Of a stretch of DNA of 64,000 nucleotides, positions 41,914-56,734 are shown in pieces (the first letter of the stretch is position 1; the number at the start of each line of letters is the position of its first letter). Location of the stretch: NCBI RefSeq assembly GCF_030687835.1, contig NZ_CP117449.1, forward strand, positions 868,001 through 932,000. The letters are read 5' to 3'. The notes below the pieces were generated by a model that worked only from the letters and a program-made list of their open reading frames with translations, did no database searches and was not told the origin of the DNA. Position numbers and translations under genes: made by a program. Source of the stretch: Pseudomonas hefeiensis. GTDB lineage: Bacteria > Pseudomonadota > Gammaproteobacteria > Pseudomonadales > Pseudomonadaceae.

Positions 41914-42117
41914 ATGATCCGCTGCCATCTCGCCCGCATGATGGGCGAGCACAAAATGCGTATTGCTGACGTAGCCAGAGAAACGGGGCTCAGCCGCGCC
42001 ACGGTGACCCTGCTCTACAAAGAAACAGCGCAGAAAGTGGATCTGGAAGCCATTGAGAAACTGTGCCTAATGTTTGAATGTCAAGTAGGCGACCTGCTTG
42101 AGCTGAAACCAGCATAG
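41914..42117 (+). CDS. Cro/C1-type HTH regulator ahead of hsdM
   Basis: A 67-residue single-domain HTH protein (MRIADVARETGLSRATVTLL, then YKE; EAIEKLCLMFECQVGDLLEL), the compact type that also serves as controller proteins of restriction systems. The ATG at 41914 has GGGG about 9 bases upstream. It is 93 bases before hsdM on the same strand, so it probably sets expression of the restriction locus. That role is inferred. Confidence 0.8.
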   Translation: MIRCHLARMMGEHKMRIADVARETGLSRATVTLLYKETAQKVDLEAIEKLCLMFECQVGDLLELKPA

Positions 42118-42210: not shown

Positions 42211-43770
42211 ATGACCAGCACCCAACAACGCGCCGCTCTGCAGCGCCAGATATGGGCCATTGCCAACGATGTCCGTGGCGCCGTCGATGGCTGGGACTTC
42301 AAGCAATACGTGCTCGGCACCCTGTTCTACCGCTTCATCAGCGAAAACTTCGCTGATTACATGACGGGCGGCGATGAGTCAGTCGATTACGCAGCCATGG
42401 ATAATGGCGACAAGAATATCGCGGCAGTCAAAGACGATGCCATAAGGACGAAGGGTTACTTCATCTACCCCAGCCAGATGTTTGCCAATGTCGTCGCCAG
42501 CGCCAATACCAACGAAAGCCTGAACACCGACCTGGCTAACATCTTTAAAGACATTGAAGCGTCCGCCAATGGCTACCCCTCCGAACGCGATATCAAAGGC
42601 CTGTTTGCCGACTTCGACACCACCAGCAACCGCTTGGGCAATACCGTCAAGGACAAGAATGCGCGCCTCGCTGACGTGCTCAAAGGCGTAGCCGGGTTGG
42701 ATTTTGGCACCTTTGACGAAAGCCACATCGACCTGTTTGGCGACGCTTACGAATTCCTCATCTCCAACTACGCCGCCAATGCCGGCAAATCGGGCGGTGA
42801 GTTCTTCACTCCGCAGCAGGTCTCCAAGCTGATCGCCCAGCTCGCCATGCACAAGCAAACCAGTATCAACAAGATCTACGATCCCGCTTGCGGCTCGGGC
42901 TCGCTGCTGCTGCAAGCCAAGAGGCACTTTGATGAACACATCATCGAAGACGGTTTTTTCGGTCAGGAACTCAACCACACCACGTATAACCTGGCGCGGA
43001 TGAACATGTTCCTTCACAACGTCAACTACGACAAATTCAACATCCAGCTAGGCGACACCCTAGCCGAGCCACACTTTGGCGATGATAAACCTTTCGATGC
43101 CATCGTCTCCAACCCGCCCTACTCGGTGAAGTGGAAGGGCATGGACGACCCCACCCTGATCAACGACGACCGCTTTGCCCCGGCCGGCGTGCTTGCGCCG
43201 AAGTCCAAGGCCGACTTTGCTTTTGTGCTGCACGCCCTCAGCTACCTCTCGGCCAAAGGTCGCGCTGCCATCGTCTGCTTCCCCGGCATTTTCTACCGGG
43301 GCGGAGCCGAGCAGAAGATCCGCCAATACTTAGTGGACAACAACTATGTGGAAAGCGTGATTTCGCTTGCCCCCAACCTATTTTATGGCACCTCCATCGC
43401 CGTGAATATTCTGGTGCTGTCCAAACACAAGACGGACACCACCACTCAATTTATCGACGCCAGCGGTCTGCTCAAGAAAGAAGCCAACAACAACGTGCTG
43501 CTGGACAGGCATATCGAGCAGATCATGCAGGTGTTCGACAGCAAGGCGAATGTGGATCACTTTGCCCAATCCGTTCCTTTGGAGAAGGTAGCTGCCAACG
43601 ACTACAACCTGTCCGTTAGCAGCTATATCGATGCCAAGGACACCCGTGACGTGGTGAATATCGCTCAGCTCAATGCCGACCTGAAAACCACGGTTGCTAG
43701 GATCGATCAACTGCGGGCCGAGATTGATGCCATCGTTGCGGAGATTGAAGGTGAGGAGTTGGGGGTATGA
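42211..43770 (+). CDS. hsdM: type I restriction-modification methyltransferase subunit
   Basis: A 519-residue N6-adenine methyltransferase subunit. The N-terminal HsdM domain covers about 1-150. The SAM-binding motif is [15 protein letters not shown] near residue 225 and the catalytic NPPY is at about 301 ([10 protein letters not shown]). The C-terminus is a helical region ([20 protein letters not shown]) that contacts HsdS. Its stop overlaps hsdS by 4 bases. The locus layout with prrC and the S-subunit repeats points to the type IC family. Confidence 0.95.
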
Positions 43771-44996
43771 GCGGCGTGAGCTTTTTGGAGAGGCTGCTGG
43801 ATGGTGTAGTGGTGGAGTGGCTACCACTTGGTGACGTTACGAAATATGAACAACCAACTAAGTATTTAGTAGCAACAAAGAACTACAGCGACGACTTTGA
43901 AACCCCCGTTCTGACTGCTGGAAAAACCTTTGTACTCGGCTACACGGACGAGGCTCACGGTATCTATAAGGCATCTGAAACGCCTGTAATAATATTTGAT
44001 GACTTTACGACCGCTAATAAATGGGTGGACTTTGATTTCAAAGCCAAATCATCGGCCATGAAGATGATTACCTCAAGTGACGAAGGTAAGACGTTAATTA
44101 AATATATTTACTTCTGGCTTAACACATTGCCAAGCGAACTGGTTGATGGCGACCACAAACGCCAGTGGATCAGTAATTATGCATGCAAAAAAATCCCGAT
44201 CCCTTGCCCAGAAAATCCCAAGAAATCGCTTGAAATCCAGGCCGAAATCGTTCGTATACTGGATATTTTTACTGAGATGACCGCCGAGCTGACCGCCGAG
44301 CTGACCGCGCGAAAAAAGCAATACAACTATTACCGTGACCAACTGTTGAGCTTTAAAAATAGGAATGTAGAATGGAAGGCGCTGTGCGAAGTTGGTGAGT
44401 TTATCCGTGGCAAGCGTTTTACCAAGGCTGACTATGTGGAAGACGGAATCAGCGTTATCCATTACGGCGAAATATACACGCGTTACGGCGTTTTTACGAC
44501 ACAAGCTTTTTCTCAGGTCAGAAACAATATGGCTGGGTCACTGCGCTATGCAGAGCCGGGCGATGTAGTGATAACTGACGTGGGTGAGACTGTTGATGAT
44601 GTTGGTAAGGCAGTGGCATGGCTCGGAGATGAAAAGGTCGCTATTCACGACCATTGCTATGCTTTTCGGCATTCAATGAATCCGAAGTTTGTTTCCTATT
44701 GCATGCAAGCGACATCGTTCGTTGCCGAGAAGGCGAAATATATAGCCAGAACCAAAGTGAATACATTGCTGGTTAATGGATTTTCAAAGATTAAAATCCC
44801 TGTTCCGTATCCAGATGATCTGGATAAATCCCTTGCAGAACAAGCCCGCATCGTCGCTATCCTCGATAAATTATACGTGTTGACAAACTCCGTCAGCAAA
44901 GGCTTGCCGTGCGAAATTGCTTTGCGCCAAAAACAATACGCGTATTATCGCGACTTACTTTTGAGTTTCCCCAGGCCAGAAGAGGTAGCGGCGTAA
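43767..44996 (+). CDS. hsdS: type I restriction-modification specificity subunit
   Basis: A 409-residue subunit with two target-recognition domains (about 10-165 and 200-375). Each is followed by a conserved helical spacer ([19 protein letters not shown] near 180; [19 protein letters not shown] at the C-terminus). The central spacer contains TAELTAEL. In the type IC enzymes EcoR124I and EcoR124II, the number of such repeats sets the gap between the two half-sites. GC content is lower than in hsdM (for example 43980-44110), as usual for exchanged recognition domains. Confidence 0.93.
44280..44303 (+). repeat. two 12-bp repeats encoding TAEL in hsdS
   Basis: ACCGCCGAGCTG occurs twice in a row, in frame, giving TAELTAEL at residues 172-179. 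Slippage between two and three copies changes spacer length in the EcoR124 family. Confidence 0.9.
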
Positions 44997-44997
44997 T

Positions 44998-46190
44998 ATG
45001 GGCAAGACGCTATCGGAAATAGCTCAACAGTTGAGCACCCCTAAAACGGTTCAAAAAACCGTTCCTGAAAAGACGAAGGTGATAGAAGAGGCTAAACCTG
45101 TGCCCAAGGTGCAGCTTATCTATGCCTTTAACGGTACGGGCAAAACACGCCTGTCGCGTGAGTTAAAGCAGCTAATTGCACCGAAGGGCGATGGCGGAGA
45201 CGGAGCTGGTGAGGCAGATCAGCTTGAGTTATCTCGTAACAAAATTCTTTATTACAATGCGTTTACCGAAGACTTGTTCTTTTGGGATAACGATTTGGCG
45301 GGAGATGCAGAGCCCAAGCTGAAGATTCAACCGAATTCATACACGGATTGGTTGCTCGCGCTACTTAAAGATTTGGGGCAGGACGGAAACATTGTCAAGT
45401 ATTTCCAGCGCTATGCGAATGACAAACTAACGCCACATTTTAGTGAAGACTTCACAGAGGTAAGCTTTTCTCTGGGCGTGGCGATAACGAACGATCTGGC
45501 TATATCAAGATATCCAAGGGGGAGGAAAGTAATTTCGTATGGAGTGTCTTTTATGCCCTGTTGGATCAAGTAATCACGATTCTAAATTTCGCCGAGCCTG
45601 AAGGCCGGGAGACCAACCAGTTTGACCGCTTGGAATACGTCTTTATTGATGATCCGGTCAGCTCTCTTGACGACAACCATTTGATCGAATTGGCGGTCAA
45701 CTTAGGCGGGTTGATCAAATCCAGTCGATCCGACCTGAAGTTTATTGTTACGACGCACAGCCCGTTGTTCTACAACGTATTATTCAATGAGCTGAAAAAT
45801 AAGGTCTGCTATTTGCTAGAGCATCTTGATGATGGAACTTATGCTCTCACTGAAAAGCCCGGCGACTCTAACAAGAGCTTTTCCTATCATCTACATTTGA
45901 AGCAAACGATAGAGCAGGCGATTGCTGAAAACAAAGTTGAAAGGTATCACTTCACTTTGCTGCGCAATCTCTACGAAAAAACTTCCAGCTTTTTGGGGTA
46001 TCCCAATTGGTCGGAGCTCTTGCCTGATGACAAGCAGCTCTATCTGGGCAGGGTCATGAATTTTACAAGCCATAGCACGTTGTCTAATGAGGCCGTTGCA
46101 GAACCCACTCCAGCAGAAAAAGCCATGGTCAAGTTGTTGCTCGATAATTTGAAAGACAAATACGGCTTTTGGAAGCAAGAGGGCGTATGA
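44998..46190 (+). pseudogene. prrC: PrrC-type anticodon nuclease, one-base frameshift
   Basis: This is PrrC, the latent tRNA-Lys anticodon nuclease silenced by the type IC complex and released by phage anti-restriction peptides. It starts [15 protein letters not shown] and has Walker A NGTGKT near residue 45. The first frame (44998-45573) diverges after FTEVSFSLG. From 45477 the -1 frame continues the family sequence ([20 protein letters not shown]) through IDDPVSSLDDNH to the end. Restoring one base after 45476 gives 397 residues; E. coli PrrC has 396. The nuclease triad is intact with family spacing: R (about 322), E (+4), H (+32), in LLRNLYEK and NFTSHST. It lies between hsdS and hsdR as in EcoprrI. 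As sequenced it is inactive. Confidence 0.93.
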
Positions 46191-46305
46191 AGGCAGGACC
46201 GCCATCATTCCCAGTGATTACCACCGACGCTGGTAGCCATCAAGCAGCGCCCACGCGCTTAGGTGAATGTACGCACCCTGCGTGCTACAACACGAGAGAA
46301 CGACC

Positions 46306-46570
46306 ATGTCCAAGTACAACCTTACATTGCGCGATCAAACCACTGAGTTCTGCTCTACACCGCGTCTAATGGCGCGCTATAAAGGTAGAGGTATTGCTCA
46401 GCAATGAGAATATTTGGCTGACGCAGAAGCGGCTACGGCACGGTGTGCGCCAGCAGGCGGAACAGAAAACCCTCGCCGAGTATGAAAAGTTCAATACACA
46501 GCAGCGCATCGAATCTGATTTCGACCGCGACGTGAAAAAGCTGTTGCAGAAAAGGGACGCGCAAGAATGA
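46306..46570 (+). pseudogene. remnant of a RhuM-family gene
   Basis: Three out-of-frame pieces are recognisable. MSKYNLTLRDQTTEF is followed in another frame by LLYTASNGA, then by IKVEVLLSNENIWLTQKRL, which are RhuM N-terminal features. That frame runs on into [20 protein letters not shown], then [11 protein letters not shown], a RhuM-like C-terminus. Some 200 or more residues of the middle are missing, so at least two frameshifts and a large deletion have occurred. The end overlaps the hsdR start by ATGA, so an intact ancestor was part of the operon. RhuM genes often sit inside type I loci; their role is not established. Confidence 0.75.
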
Positions 46571-49500
46571 GCGATTACACGACCATCGCCGAATCGAAAA
46601 GCTTCATCGTTCTGGACCAGTACACAAAGGAATCGCAGGTAGCCGAAAGCTATCAGAGCGAAGCCGATTTGGAGCGTGAGTTTATTGAGGATCTGGTCAA
46701 TCAGGGTTATGAATACCTGCCCGGCCTGAACACGCCCCAAGCCCTGCTGGTCAATGTGCGCATGCAGCTGCAAACGCTTAATAACGCGCAGTTTTCCGAC
46801 AGTGAGTGGCAGCGCTTTGTTGAGAGCTGGCTGGACAAGTCCAGTGATGGCCTCAATGAGAAAACCCGCAAGATCCATGACGACTACATTCATGACTTCG
46901 TCTTTGACGATGGCCGTATCCAGAACATCTACCTGCTGGACAAGAAAAACGTTCTGCGCAACAAGATGCAGGTGATCAAGCAGTTTGAGCAAAAGGGCAG
47001 CCACGCCAATCGCTACGACGTGACGATTCTGATCAATGGCTTGCCCCTGGTGCAGGTGGAATTGAAGAAGCGTGGTGTGGCGATTCGTGAGGCCTTCAAT
47101 CAGGTGCACCGCTACAGCAAGGAGAGCTTGAATAGTGAGCATTCCTTGTTCAAATACCTGCAGCTAGTCGTGATCTCCAACGGCACCGACAGCCGTTACT
47201 TTGCCAACACCACTCAGCGCAACAAGAACAGCTTCGACTTCACCATGAACTGGGCGAGGGCCGATAACAGCCTGATCAAAGATCTGAAAGACTTTACCGC
47301 CACCTTCTTCCAGAAAGACACCTTGCTGAAGGTGCTGCTGCGCTATTCGGTTTTCGATACCAGCAACACACTGCTGGTGATGCGCCCGTACCAGATTGCC
47401 GCCACAGAACGCATTTTGTGGACGATCAACTGCGCGTATCAGGCCAAGAACTGGAGCAAGCGCGAAGGTGGCGGCTTCATCTGGCACACCACAGGCTCCG
47501 GCAAGACGCTGACCAGCTTCAAGGCGGCTCGTCTGGCCACTGAGCTGGCGTTTGTCGACAAGGTGTTCTTCGTGGTGGACCGCAAGGATCTGGATTACCA
47601 GACCATGAAGGAATACCAGCGCTTTTCCCCGGAAAGCGTGAATGGTTCGGACAGCACGGCGGGCCTGAAGCGTAACCTGGACAAGGACGACAACAAGATC
47701 ATCGTCACCACCATCCAGAAGCTCAACAACCTCATGAAGAGCGAGCCCGACCTGCCCATTTACGGGAAACAGGTGGTGTTCATTTTCGACGAGTGCCACC
47801 GTAGCCAGTTTGGTGAAGCGCAGAAGAACCTGAAGAAGAAGTTCAAGAAGTTTTATCAGTTCGGCTTTACCGGCACGCCGATCTTTGCAGGCCATAACGC
47901 CTTAGGTGCGGAAGATACGGCAGGCGTGTTTGGCCGTGAATTGCACTCGTACGTGATCACCGATGCGATTCGCGACCAAAAGGTGCTCAAGTTTAAGGTC
48001 GATTACAACGATGTGCGGCCGCAGTTCAAGGCCATTGAAACCGAGCAGGATGAGAAAAAACTCAGCGCGGCTGAAAACAAGCAGGCGTTGCTGCACCCCG
48101 AGCGTATCCGAGAGATCACGCAGTACATTCTGAACAGCTACCGGCAGAAAACTCACCGCCTGCACGCGGGAAATAAGGGCTTCAACGCCATGTTCGCGGT
48201 CAGCAGCGTGGACGCTGCCAAGCTGTACTACGAGTCTTTCAGGACGTTACAGAAGGGCAGTGACAAGCCTTTGAGGGTGGCCACTATCTTCTCGTTCGCG
48301 GCCAATGAGGAGCAGGATGCGGTCGGTGAGATCGAGGACGAAAGCTTCGATGTTTCTGCCATGAACAGCAGCGCCAAGGAGTTTTTGAATGCGGCTATTG
48401 CGGACTACAACGGGCTGTTCAAAACCAACTTCAGCGTCGACAGCAACGGCTTTCAGAACTACTACCGCGACCTGGCTAAGCAAGTCAAAGCCAGGGAAAT
48501 TGACCTGTTGATCGTGGTGGGCATGTTCCTCACCGGCTTCGATGCGCCCACGCTCAACACGCTGTTCGTCGACAAGAACCTGCGCTACCACGGCCTGATA
48601 CAGGCCTATTCGCGCACCAACCGGATTTTTGATGCGACCAAGACCTTTGGCAATATCGTGACTTTCCGCGATCTGGAACAGGCGACCATCGATGCCATCA
48701 CCTTGTTCGGCAACAGCAATACCCGAAACGTGGTGCTGGAGAAGAGCTACAAGGAGTACATGGAGGGCTTTACCGATGTGCTAACGGGCGAGGCGCGGCG
48801 TGGTTTCGTTGAGGTCGTTACAGAGCTGGAGCAGCGCTTCCCCAATCCTGCAGCGATTGAAAAAGAGTCTGATAAAAAGGCCTTTACCAAGCTGTTTGGC
48901 GAGTACTTGCGCGTGGAGAACGTGCTCCAGAACTACGATGAATTCGCCAGTCTGAAGGCCTTGCAAAGCTTGGACATGAACGATTCGGCGGCAATTGAGG
49001 CGTTCAAGGCACAGCATTATTTGAGCGATGAAGATCTTGCCGCACTGCAAGCGATCAAAATGCCGGCGGAGCGGAAAATCCAGGATTACCGCTCAACCTA
49101 TAACGATGTGCGTGATTGGCTGCGCCGGGAAAAAGCGGGCGCAGAAAAGGAAAAATCCACCATCGATTGGGATGATGTGGTCTTTGAAGTGGACCTGCTC
49201 AAATCGCAGGAAATCAATCTAGATTACATCCTGGAGCTGATTTTTGAGCACAACAAGAAGATCAAGAGCAAATCGGATCTGGTGGATGAAGTGCGCCGGG
49301 TGATTCGTGCCAGTTTGGGTAATCGCGCGAAGGAAAGCTTGTTGGTCGATTTCATCAACCAGACCGATCTGGATCAGATTGGCGACAAGGCCAGCGTGAT
49401 CGACGCCTTCTTCAGCTTTGCTCAAGCGGAACAGCTGCGTGAGGCACAAGATCTGATCTGCACCGAGAATCTGAATACCGAGGCGGCTAGACGCTATATC

Positions 49501-49668
49501 ACCACCTCGCTCAAGCGTGAGTTTGCCAGTGACAGTGGTACTGAGCTCAATGCTGTCCTGCCAAAGATGAGCCCATTGAATCCGCAGTACCTGACCAAAA
49601 AGCAAAGTGTTTTCCAGAAAATCGCAGCATTTGTTGAGAAGTTTAAAGGGGTGGGCGGGAGCGTTTAA
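46567..49668 (+). CDS. hsdR: type I restriction endonuclease subunit
   Basis: A 1033-residue DNA translocase and nuclease subunit. The PD-(D/E)xK nuclease core is at about residues 120-170 ([20 protein letters not shown]). The helicase motor has Walker [16 protein letters not shown] near 308, DECH in [13 protein letters not shown] near 408, and motif VI-like [14 protein letters not shown] near 680. The helical C-terminal domain (about 860-1033) docks on the methylase. It appears complete, so restriction should be functional despite the broken prrC between it and hsdS. Confidence 0.95.
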
Positions 49669-49849: not shown

Positions 49850-49998
49850 GGGTGTCAGAACCTGAATCAAAACCAAGGCGCGGTTTCTTCCATTCCGCAC
49901 AGCCAGTGCTTCGTGCGCTAGCTGCTGCTTTTCTATGGCGGACCGTGCGGGGCAGGCTTCGGCCTGGCCGGTTCCTTGGTTTCCGGTTTCTGACCCCC
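49850..49998 (+). ncRNA. candidate structured leader RNA
   Basis: The ends pair over a distance: GGGTGTCAGAACC (49850-49862) with GGTTTCTGACCCCC (49985-49998). Just inside, AAACCAAGG (49870-49878) pairs perfectly with CCTTGGTTT (49974-49982). The core has a hairpin with a UUCG tetraloop, CAGGC-TTCG-GCCTG (49953-49966). Nested helices with a tetraloop and no sensible coding frame suggest a structured RNA. It lies 74 bases before a strong RBS and a small ORF. I recall similar leaders in Pseudomonas mobile islands but cannot name a family with certainty. Confidence 0.55.
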
Positions 49999-50071
49999 GT
50001 ACGGTTTGCCACCCTTTATCGCGTCAGAACGGTGGATGGCAATCCTTAATCAAACCAAGGAGATAAGGAAA

Positions 50072-50687: not shown

Positions 50688-51298
50688 GTCTGTAATTGAC
50701 GTTTAAGATTTGCTTTTCCCGCCAAACCCTTCGATCAAGCGATCTTTGATCGCGCTGATCGGAGGGTTCACTCGCTTTTTTCTCGAAGCCTCCGCGTTCC
50801 ACCCTCCCATTTTCAAATTTGATTAACGCCACGCTTGCTTTCACCCGTCAGTAATCCCCACGATCCTGTCGGGTGCAACGCTATTCAGTGTATGTGCGAA
50901 TCTTTTCGTTGGGCATGGGTGTAGGTGTGGCGACAGCGGCGACGCCGGCGACAACCCACGTAGAGTGTGGCCTGGGGAATGGCGACAGAAGTGGCGACAG
51001 TCGCCACTTTCTCAGCGCATTGACCGTGACGCTTGACCGCCTTTTCGTGTGGGTATAAAAATTGGCGCACGGATCGTTGTCGTTGACAGCACCAGCCCAG
51101 GTAGCCAGAACCTTGAAGGCTACGCCACTCGCGTGGTGGTTCTTCCCCAAGTGCGATTAGCGTCCGGCGGCTCGCACGGTCACTCCCCAAGAGTGATGGA
51201 TGCCTACTCGACCAATCTGCCCATTGCGGCAGACGATGGACCTACCTCGCTGCATTGCAGCAACCTCACCTCTTGGCACACTTCGCTGCGCCAGACCT

Positions 51299-54897: not shown

Positions 54898-56154
54898 TCA
54901 GCGAATCGGTATGACGTTGCGATCTCTGGTTTGATTGATGGCCGATGCTGACAGGCTGCCGGTGGCCGCCTTCTGGATATGTTCACTCCACCAAGCCATC
55001 ATCGGACGCCGGCGTTCGATGTAATCCGTCCGGTTGTAGGCGCTACGAACTTCGTCCTTGTCGACATGCGCCAGTGCGACCTCGATCAGCTCCGGATCCC
55101 AGCCATGCTCATTCAGGATGGTGCTCGCCATCGAGCGCAAGCCGTGGCTGACTAGACGGTCCTGAAAGCCCATGCGCTTCAACGCCATGTTGGCGGTCTG
55201 GCTATTGGCATGGGTGCGGGGGTTTCTATCTGACGGGAACACGTACTCTCTGTTACCGCTGAGTTGCTTGAGTGTCTCCAGTAAAGAAAGTGCCTGATCG
55301 GTAAGAGGGATTGTGTGCGGCCGACGCTTTTTCATGCGCTCTGGCGGAATGGTCCAAATGCGCTTGTCGAAGTCGATATCTGCCCATCGCGCGGTGGCTG
55401 CTTCGGCAGGGCGGGTCATCGTGTGCAGTTGCCATTCGATCAGGCAGCGGGTCGTGCGTTTGATGCTGGCGTTCGCGATTTCCATCATGAGCTCGGGAAG
55501 CTCCTCAGGTGGTAGCGCAGCCATGTTCTCTTTCTTGGGTTTCTTGAACACCGCCCGAATTCCATTGAGGGGGTTCGCGAGTATCAACCCGGAGTTGACC
55601 CCGTAGGTCATGATCTCGTTGAGTCGTTGGCTCAATCGTTTCACGGTTTCGAGACTCCCTTTGGCCTCGATTGGACGAAGGATCTTGATAACCATCGGAG
55701 CAGTGATTTTAGAGAGCGGCGTTGTTTTCATGCTTGGGAAAACATGAAGCGTCAGCGATCTCCAAATGTCTTCGGCGTAGGCTTTGGTTACGGAGTCTTT
55801 CTTCAGCTCGAACCAGGCCGTGGCCACCTTCTCGAAAGTGTGTTCACTCTCCGCAAGTTTGGCTTGCCTTACCTCATCACGCTGGGTTTTGGGATCAATG
55901 CCCAAAGCGAGTAACTCACGCGCCTCTGCGGCTTTCTTCCGGGCGTTGGCTAGCGAGAGGTCGGGGTATGGACCAAGCGCCATGTTGATACGGCTTCTGG
56001 TCAACGGCTCACGGTAATTGAAATTCCACATCATCGAGCCGCTGGCGCGTACTCGAAGCTGCAAGCCATCGCCGTCGCTGAGGACGAAGTCTTTACCAGT
56101 TGCCTTGACTGCCTTGAGCTGGCGATCGGAGAGGCGGGTTGCGTTAGTAGGCAT
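54898..56154 (-). CDS. int: P4-type tyrosine integrase next to ssrA
   Basis: A 418-residue integrase. The N-terminal DUF4102 arm-binding domain (LSDRQLKAVKATGKDFVLSD; LGPYPDLSLANARKKAAEAR) covers about 1-95. The core-binding domain covers about 100-200. Catalytic residues are in WQLHTMTRPAEAATARW (Arg), RLVSHGLRSMASTILNEHG (His-x-x-Arg) and the C-terminal Tyr near RSAYNRTDY. The ATG at 56154 has GGAGG upstream. It starts 187 bases from the 3' end of ssrA and reads away from it, the standard layout for islands integrated in tmRNA genes. Confidence 0.92.
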   Translation of the reverse strand: MPTNATRLSDRQLKAVKATGKDFVLSDGDGLQLRVRASGSMMWNFNYREPLTRSRINMALGPYPDLSLANARKKAAEARELLALGIDPKTQRDEVRQAKLAESEHTFEKVATAWFELKKDSVTKAYAEDIWRSLTLHVFPSMKTTPLSKITAPMVIKILRPIEAKGSLETVKRLSQRLNEIMTYGVNSGLILANPLNGIRAVFKKPKKENMAALPPEELPELMMEIANASIKRTTRCLIEWQLHTMTRPAEAATARWADIDFDKRIWTIPPERMKKRRPHTIPLTDQALSLLETLKQLSGNREYVFPSDRNPRTHANSQTANMALKRMGFQDRLVSHGLRSMASTILNEHGWDPELIEVALAHVDKDEVRSAYNRTDYIERRRPMMAWWSEHIQKAATGSLSASAINQTRDRNVIPIR

Positions 56155-56302
56155 AGGGGCTACCTCCAGCACCGTTTTGGTATCCTGAAAATAGCATTTG
56201 GTAGTCCGGGATACCACCTGGGATACCAAAGCGCCTGGAACTCAGAAATCCTCGAAAGCCCCAAAAAGCGCTGAACCCCCTGTATTCACTGGATTTTAGG
56301 CA

Positions 56303-56329
56303 CAAAAAAAGACGTCCGTGGACGTCTTT
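56303..56329 (-). terminator. ssrA terminator
   Basis: Stem AAAGACGTCC/GGACGTCTTT with a 2-base loop and a run of U on the minus strand, 12 bases beyond the tmRNA 3' end. Confidence 0.85.
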
Positions 56330-56340
56330 AGATGTTGAAG

Positions 56341-56734
56341 TGGTGGAGCCGGGGGGATTTGAACCCCCGTCCGCCAGTACTCCGCTGTCGGTACTACATG
56401 CTTAGCCGTGTCTATTAAGTTAACCCTCAGCGACCCGACGGGCAGGGTGCTTTGGGCGAGTTGTGTAAGTTTTAGCCGATTCGTCCACAACGTACTGCAC
56501 GGCGATTCCGTTCTATATGACAATCACTTTGGGTTTACGGACATCCCCTGGTGATTGCTGGACCCGAAGGTACCAGAAGGGAAGGGCTAAGGCTGCTTAC
56601 GCAGCGAGAGCGTATTCCCCGTAGGTTTCGTCATTGGCAACTATAGGAAGTTGCAACAGTGGATTTACGAGTTCTGTTACCAACTCGGCATGCACCTAAA
56701 GTTTCGCAACCGGCGTCGAATCCTAAACGGCCCC
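56341..56734 (-). ncRNA. ssrA: transfer-messenger RNA
   Basis: A 394-base tmRNA. The 5' end GGGGCCG pairs with the 3' end CGGCTCC before the encoded ACCA tail. The tRNA-like T arm (GGGGGTTCAAATCCCCC) is present. The tag-reading frame (56597-56638) encodes ANDETYGEYALAA and a TAA stop, the Pseudomonas type of degradation tag. It rescues stalled ribosomes with SmpB. The 3' end is the integration site used by the adjacent P4-type integrase. Confidence 0.97.

Follow-up and report, generated by a model that had tools for sequence, protein, structure and literature searches.

The DNA analyzed here (the window) is a stretch of 64,000 nucleotides that corresponds to positions 868001-932000 on a single 6,451,026-bp contig. 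Bases 42211-49668 of the window hold hsdM, hsdS, prrC in two frames, a remnant of rhuM, and hsdR. The locus is a real type IC restriction operon with an EcoprrI-type PrrC anticodon nuclease: hsdM, hsdS and hsdR are intact around prrC, and HsdR carries an EcoR124_C domain. The features are as follows (P0124 is an intact PrrC protein described below):

41914..42117, + strand: small Cro/C1-type helix-turn-helix gene upstream of the operon (Pfam HTH_26, 78 bits)
42211..43770, + strand: hsdM, modification subunit, 519 aa, open (TIGR00497, 645.6 bits)
43767..44996, + strand: hsdS, specificity subunit, 409 aa, open (Pfam Methylase_S; PADLOC Specificity_I)
44280..44303, + strand: 12-bp repeat, present twice in hsdS and coding for Thr-Ala-Glu-Leu (direct reading)
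44998..45474, + strand: prrC first piece, 159 residues, with Walker A (PADLOC PrrC, 153 bits; equals P0124 residues 1-159)
45471..45477, + strand: recorded frame change in prrC (open reading frames and conservation)
45477..46190, + strand: prrC second piece, 237 residues (equals P0124 residues 161-397; PADLOC PrrC)
46305..46570, + strand: rhuM remnant, both ends kept, with an internal loss of ~780 bp and small indels
46567..49668, + strand: hsdR, restriction subunit, 1033 aa, open (TIGR00348, 676.1 bits; EcoR124_C domain)

A helix-turn-helix gene similar to the one upstream precedes hsdM in related loci L032, L069, L070, L076 and L117. The Thr-Ala-Glu-Leu (TAEL) repeats of hsdS determine the spacing of type IC sites, according to the portion of PMC3874165 on which we draw. 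A preliminary description of this DNA gave the gene order as hsdM-hsdS-prrC-hsdR, as in EcoprrI; this order holds, except that the rhuM remnant sits between prrC and hsdR.

The PADLOC PrrC model matches both prrC pieces, with 153 bits for the first and 268.8 bits for the second (45561-46187), while an NCBIfam search of the two pieces gave no match for either and a sequence search of solved structures at an E-value of 0.001 matched none to prrC. The ABC ATPase motifs are complete: the first piece supplies Walker A, and the second supplies the ABC signature, Walker B and the switch histidine, along with the PrrC box and the nuclease triad. Full conservation of NGTGKT, IDDPVSSLDD and the R-x3-E-x31-H triad had been described previously, and we found each of these, together with the ABC signature, across the two pieces. 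The triad has its exact spacing in the second piece, as it does in 78 of 80 related loci, and within the PrrC family the gene is unexceptional. A search of the genome with PF13166 matched one place only, in the second piece, which speaks against a second PrrC-like gene.

The recorded frame break

As recorded in the window, prrC is not one continuous frame. It starts at 44998 in a frame that stops at 45573 (191 aa); a second frame, offset by -1, is open between 45447 and its end at 46190, so that the two overlap at 45447-45573. The split described earlier is thus present in the record, both in the open reading frames and in the PADLOC PrrC matches to the two halves. Conservation places the frame change within a few bases at ~45471-45477, in agreement with the proposal of a missing base after 45476 as far as position goes; the break itself is probably not in the organism, where the intact P0124 points to a whole gene.

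The arrangement of the two frames, with the second at -1 and overlapping the first, is one that programmed -1 ribosomal frameshifting could join, in which case the recorded sequence would be right and the gene would work. However, inspection by eye revealed no classical slippery heptamer at the break, the downstream RNA folds no better than shuffled sequences (z 0.18), no stimulatory fold being seen, and in 78 of 80 relatives prrC is read without any shift. We consider the probability of such frameshifting close to nil.

The related loci were kept from genome contigs and picked by similarity to the second half of prrC alone. In 78 of the 80, prrC lies in one frame without a stop. The exceptions are L007 (Enterobacter sp. 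EA-1), whose prrC has frame changes, and L051, whose prrC has one stop. In L007 the hsd matches are also fragmented by frame changes, and with these matches in short pieces it looks like an indel-prone assembly.

Phase-type switching at a short G-run had also been put forward, with slippage at the site turning prrC on or off within a population. The records do seem to show two states of prrC in what is apparently a single strain (see below), but the longest single-base run within 24 nt of the break is 4 in the window, which is short for slippage switching, and the long simple repeat tract that marks the switch point of a phase-variable gene is absent. Single-base runs at the site range from 2 to 6 in the 78 intact relatives, and are at least 5 in 18 of them; of the 80 related loci, 78 are in frame. 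We found no support for reversible switching, and regard it as very improbable.

Amino-acid changes unique to the window number 2 in the first prrC piece and 7 in the second, compared with 1-12 and 1-24 in seven relatives. These counts show no clear excess, as would fit either an error in the record or a mutation of very recent origin. Old decay of prrC was also considered and set aside; the counts fall inside the range of the relatives and do not clearly speak for or against it.

An intact PrrC identical to both pieces

We searched 5.8 billion proteins with a profile built from two intact relatives plus the window's two pieces, entered as separate rows, scoring the 8000 candidates that shared most words and considering the best 120. 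Fourth among these 120 was P0124, a 397-aa PrrC that opens with the 159-residue piece and closes with the 237-residue piece, with a single residue between them. It is identical to the window at 159/159 and 237/237 residues, and it is continuous. In the protein search, P0124 was flagged as the window's own protein.

The cluster to which P0124 belongs has 15 member sequences on 3 contigs, and its longest contig, a value given for the cluster and not for P0124 itself, is 6,451,022 bp, 4 bp below the 6,451,026 bp of the window's chromosome. The likeliest reading is that the cluster represents another record of the same chromosome with a whole prrC; the 6,451,022-bp contig would then come from the same strain and carry the intact gene. 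When the broken 191-aa product was searched on its own, it was absent among the best 120 of 1024 matches, and the highest identity in those 120 was 87%.

Other single-base breaks in the assembly

We compared 864 kb of the window's genome (G000) and 800 kb of G010. The latter genome is closed, belongs to the same genus and is 87% identical to G000 over 4 kb beside the tmRNA gene. The comparison yielded 74 alignments totaling 430,766 bases, with 92 isolated frame-changing indels, which we filtered by the codon-position periodicity of substitutions on both sides. Sixteen of the 92 have periodic substitutions on both sides. Sorted by eye, 11 of these were set aside as gene ends, spacers, and short or shadow frames, 3 fall in one gene, and 2 are clean single-base breaks in genes that are open in G010: msbA at 614319 and a galactarate dehydratase gene at 1018360. 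On the G010 side of the 430,766 aligned bases, we recognized no clean break. Among the 11 set aside, a two-base indel at 569100 is uncertain and may represent another break.

The msbA gene (G000:C1:613585-615301; L203, L210) is here two abutting frames, and the MsbA model matches the pieces with 259.8 and 521.5 bits, neither reaching the cut-off of 602. The galactarate dehydratase gene (G000:C1:1017964-1019479; L211, L212) likewise lies in two abutting pieces, none above the curated cut-off, with a further three-base gap relative to G010 nearby. An open MsbA-like paralogue is found elsewhere in the genome (494.5 bits), and the part of PMC10128140 consulted reports msbA as essential in P. aeruginosa but also a Tn5 mutant recovered in P. 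putida KT2440. Because of that mutant and the paralogue, the msbA break may be real. A third gene, at G000:C1:975191-975615, is open in G010 and has three frame-changing indels here (17, 1 and 5 bases); it is probably a real pseudogene. Overall, the survey supports, without proving, that the prrC break is an assembly error.

Decay and exchange within the operon

The closest whole operon that we found, L081 of Stutzerimonas stutzeri V81, has an open rhuM of 351 aa (Pfam RhuM, 335 bits). The window's remnant consists of two DNA pieces 88% identical to this gene, with the ~780 bp between them missing and small indels; its 52-aa piece, searched alone against Pfam, matched no family. The rhuM beside prrC is truly decayed. 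By contrast, hsdM, hsdS and hsdR show no frame-breaking indel relative to L081 over ~6 kb. Since rhuM has decayed while the hsd genes are free of such indels, this operon loses accessory genes, making a true mutation of prrC plausible.

A real and very recent mutation would mean that the sequenced stock is broken while another stock of the strain is intact, with restriction kept and the suicide nuclease lost. The gathering of indels in accessory genes fits this account, as does the otherwise intact look of both prrC pieces, expected of a young lesion. The stop in prrC of one relative, L051, also counts against the reading as an error. Against a recent mutation, the same assembly splits other conserved genes in the same way, the intact protein has been recorded, and the best 120 of the 1024 matches to the broken product do not include that product. 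Recent loss, one of three options originally listed, is accordingly disfavored, the decayed neighbor lending it some plausibility; we judge it unlikely. That both records are right, the stocks differing as a suicide nuclease is costly in culture and prrC is shed while restriction is kept, we hold to be a distinctly long shot.

DNA identity to L081 is 87-89% on both sides of prrC, and falls to 65% within prrC (window 45023-46305). By these identities, prrC has been exchanged relative to its closest sister locus. The slot between prrC and hsdR also differs among loci (L002, L011, L022, L037, L046, L055, L065, L076 and L081): searched against Pfam, the nine slot frames comprise three RhuM (one also Fic), one Fic, two DUF1016/YhcG, two Bro-N and one RelA/SpoT.

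The operon lies in a variable region, window 8728-49759, that has no alignment of at least 1 kb to G010. An integrase gene adjoins the tmRNA gene (noted with window 8728-49759 and 54898-56734), and RNA family matches to C4 antisense RNA and radC RNA are found behind the operon (window 49931-50016 and 51059-51203). In E. coli NCCP 15734, an intact prrC operon (L160, 2901-11518) sits in a prophage-like region with terminase and Phd/Doc, which we take to be P1-like. Just behind its hsdR is a gene annotated as a 3'-phosphatase; a repair-type gene next to a tRNA-cutting gene is worth a look.

An ordinary PrrC locus with a probable error in its record

In the organism, prrC is most likely whole, with the frame break most probably arising from an error in this genome record. 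We favor this reading because a cluster that includes a contig 4 bp shorter than this chromosome contains an intact PrrC matching both halves exactly, and because other conserved genes of the assembly are also split by single-base differences. Assembly error was among the options of the preliminary description, and it is the one to which the intact counterpart and the other split genes point. The locus would then be an ordinary EcoprrI-type locus, with a single-base break introduced in sequencing or assembly.

Passages of PMC3014915 and PMC3874165 describe how, in EcoprrI, PrrC is silenced by the restriction complex, is freed when a phage factor blocks restriction, and cuts tRNA-Lys. By family membership, the PrrC encoded here would be a latent nuclease kept silent by the Hsd complex; a phage factor that blocks restriction would release it, and the released protein would cut tRNA-Lys in the anticodon loop. 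By analogy, the mode of action of E. coli PrrC is expected to apply to the intact PrrC.

The case for a pseudogene, and for an on-off switch based on it, depends on a base for which the other record offers no support. Moreover, as the assembly carries other single-base gene breaks, any pseudogene called from a single base in it should be checked. Beyond that, the PrrC locus is an ordinary one in which prrC has been exchanged and a neighboring gene has decayed.

Comparison with known systems

The locus shares the gene order hsdM-hsdS-prrC-hsdR with EcoprrI (prrABCD) of E. coli, as given in the portion of PMC3014915 used here. It also has the motifs and triad spacing of an annotated E. coli anticodon nuclease (L162, E. 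coli B1), which is 74% and 84% identical to the two prrC pieces and whose triad at R320, E324 and H356 agrees with the numbering in an excerpt of PMC2610378. It differs from EcoprrI in that prrC is recorded as split and is followed by a rhuM remnant before hsdR begins; in addition, EcoPrrI hsdS has three TAEL repeats, and the window's hsdS two.

The operon of L081 is close to the one described here throughout its hsd genes, with HsdS 90% identical as protein and DNA identities of 87% for hsdM and hsdS and 89% for hsdR. In contrast, its prrC is in one frame and 65% identical as DNA, and its rhuM is open.

RloC, as presented in the same excerpt of PMC2610378, shares the ABC ATPase motifs and an R-x3-E-...-H triad with PrrC. 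In that account, RloC has a zinc-hook/coiled-coil insert and a triad spacing of 36-52, and is seldom linked to a type I locus, whereas the protein here has a triad spacing of 31 and a length of 397 aa (P0124), and its gene lies inside a type I operon.
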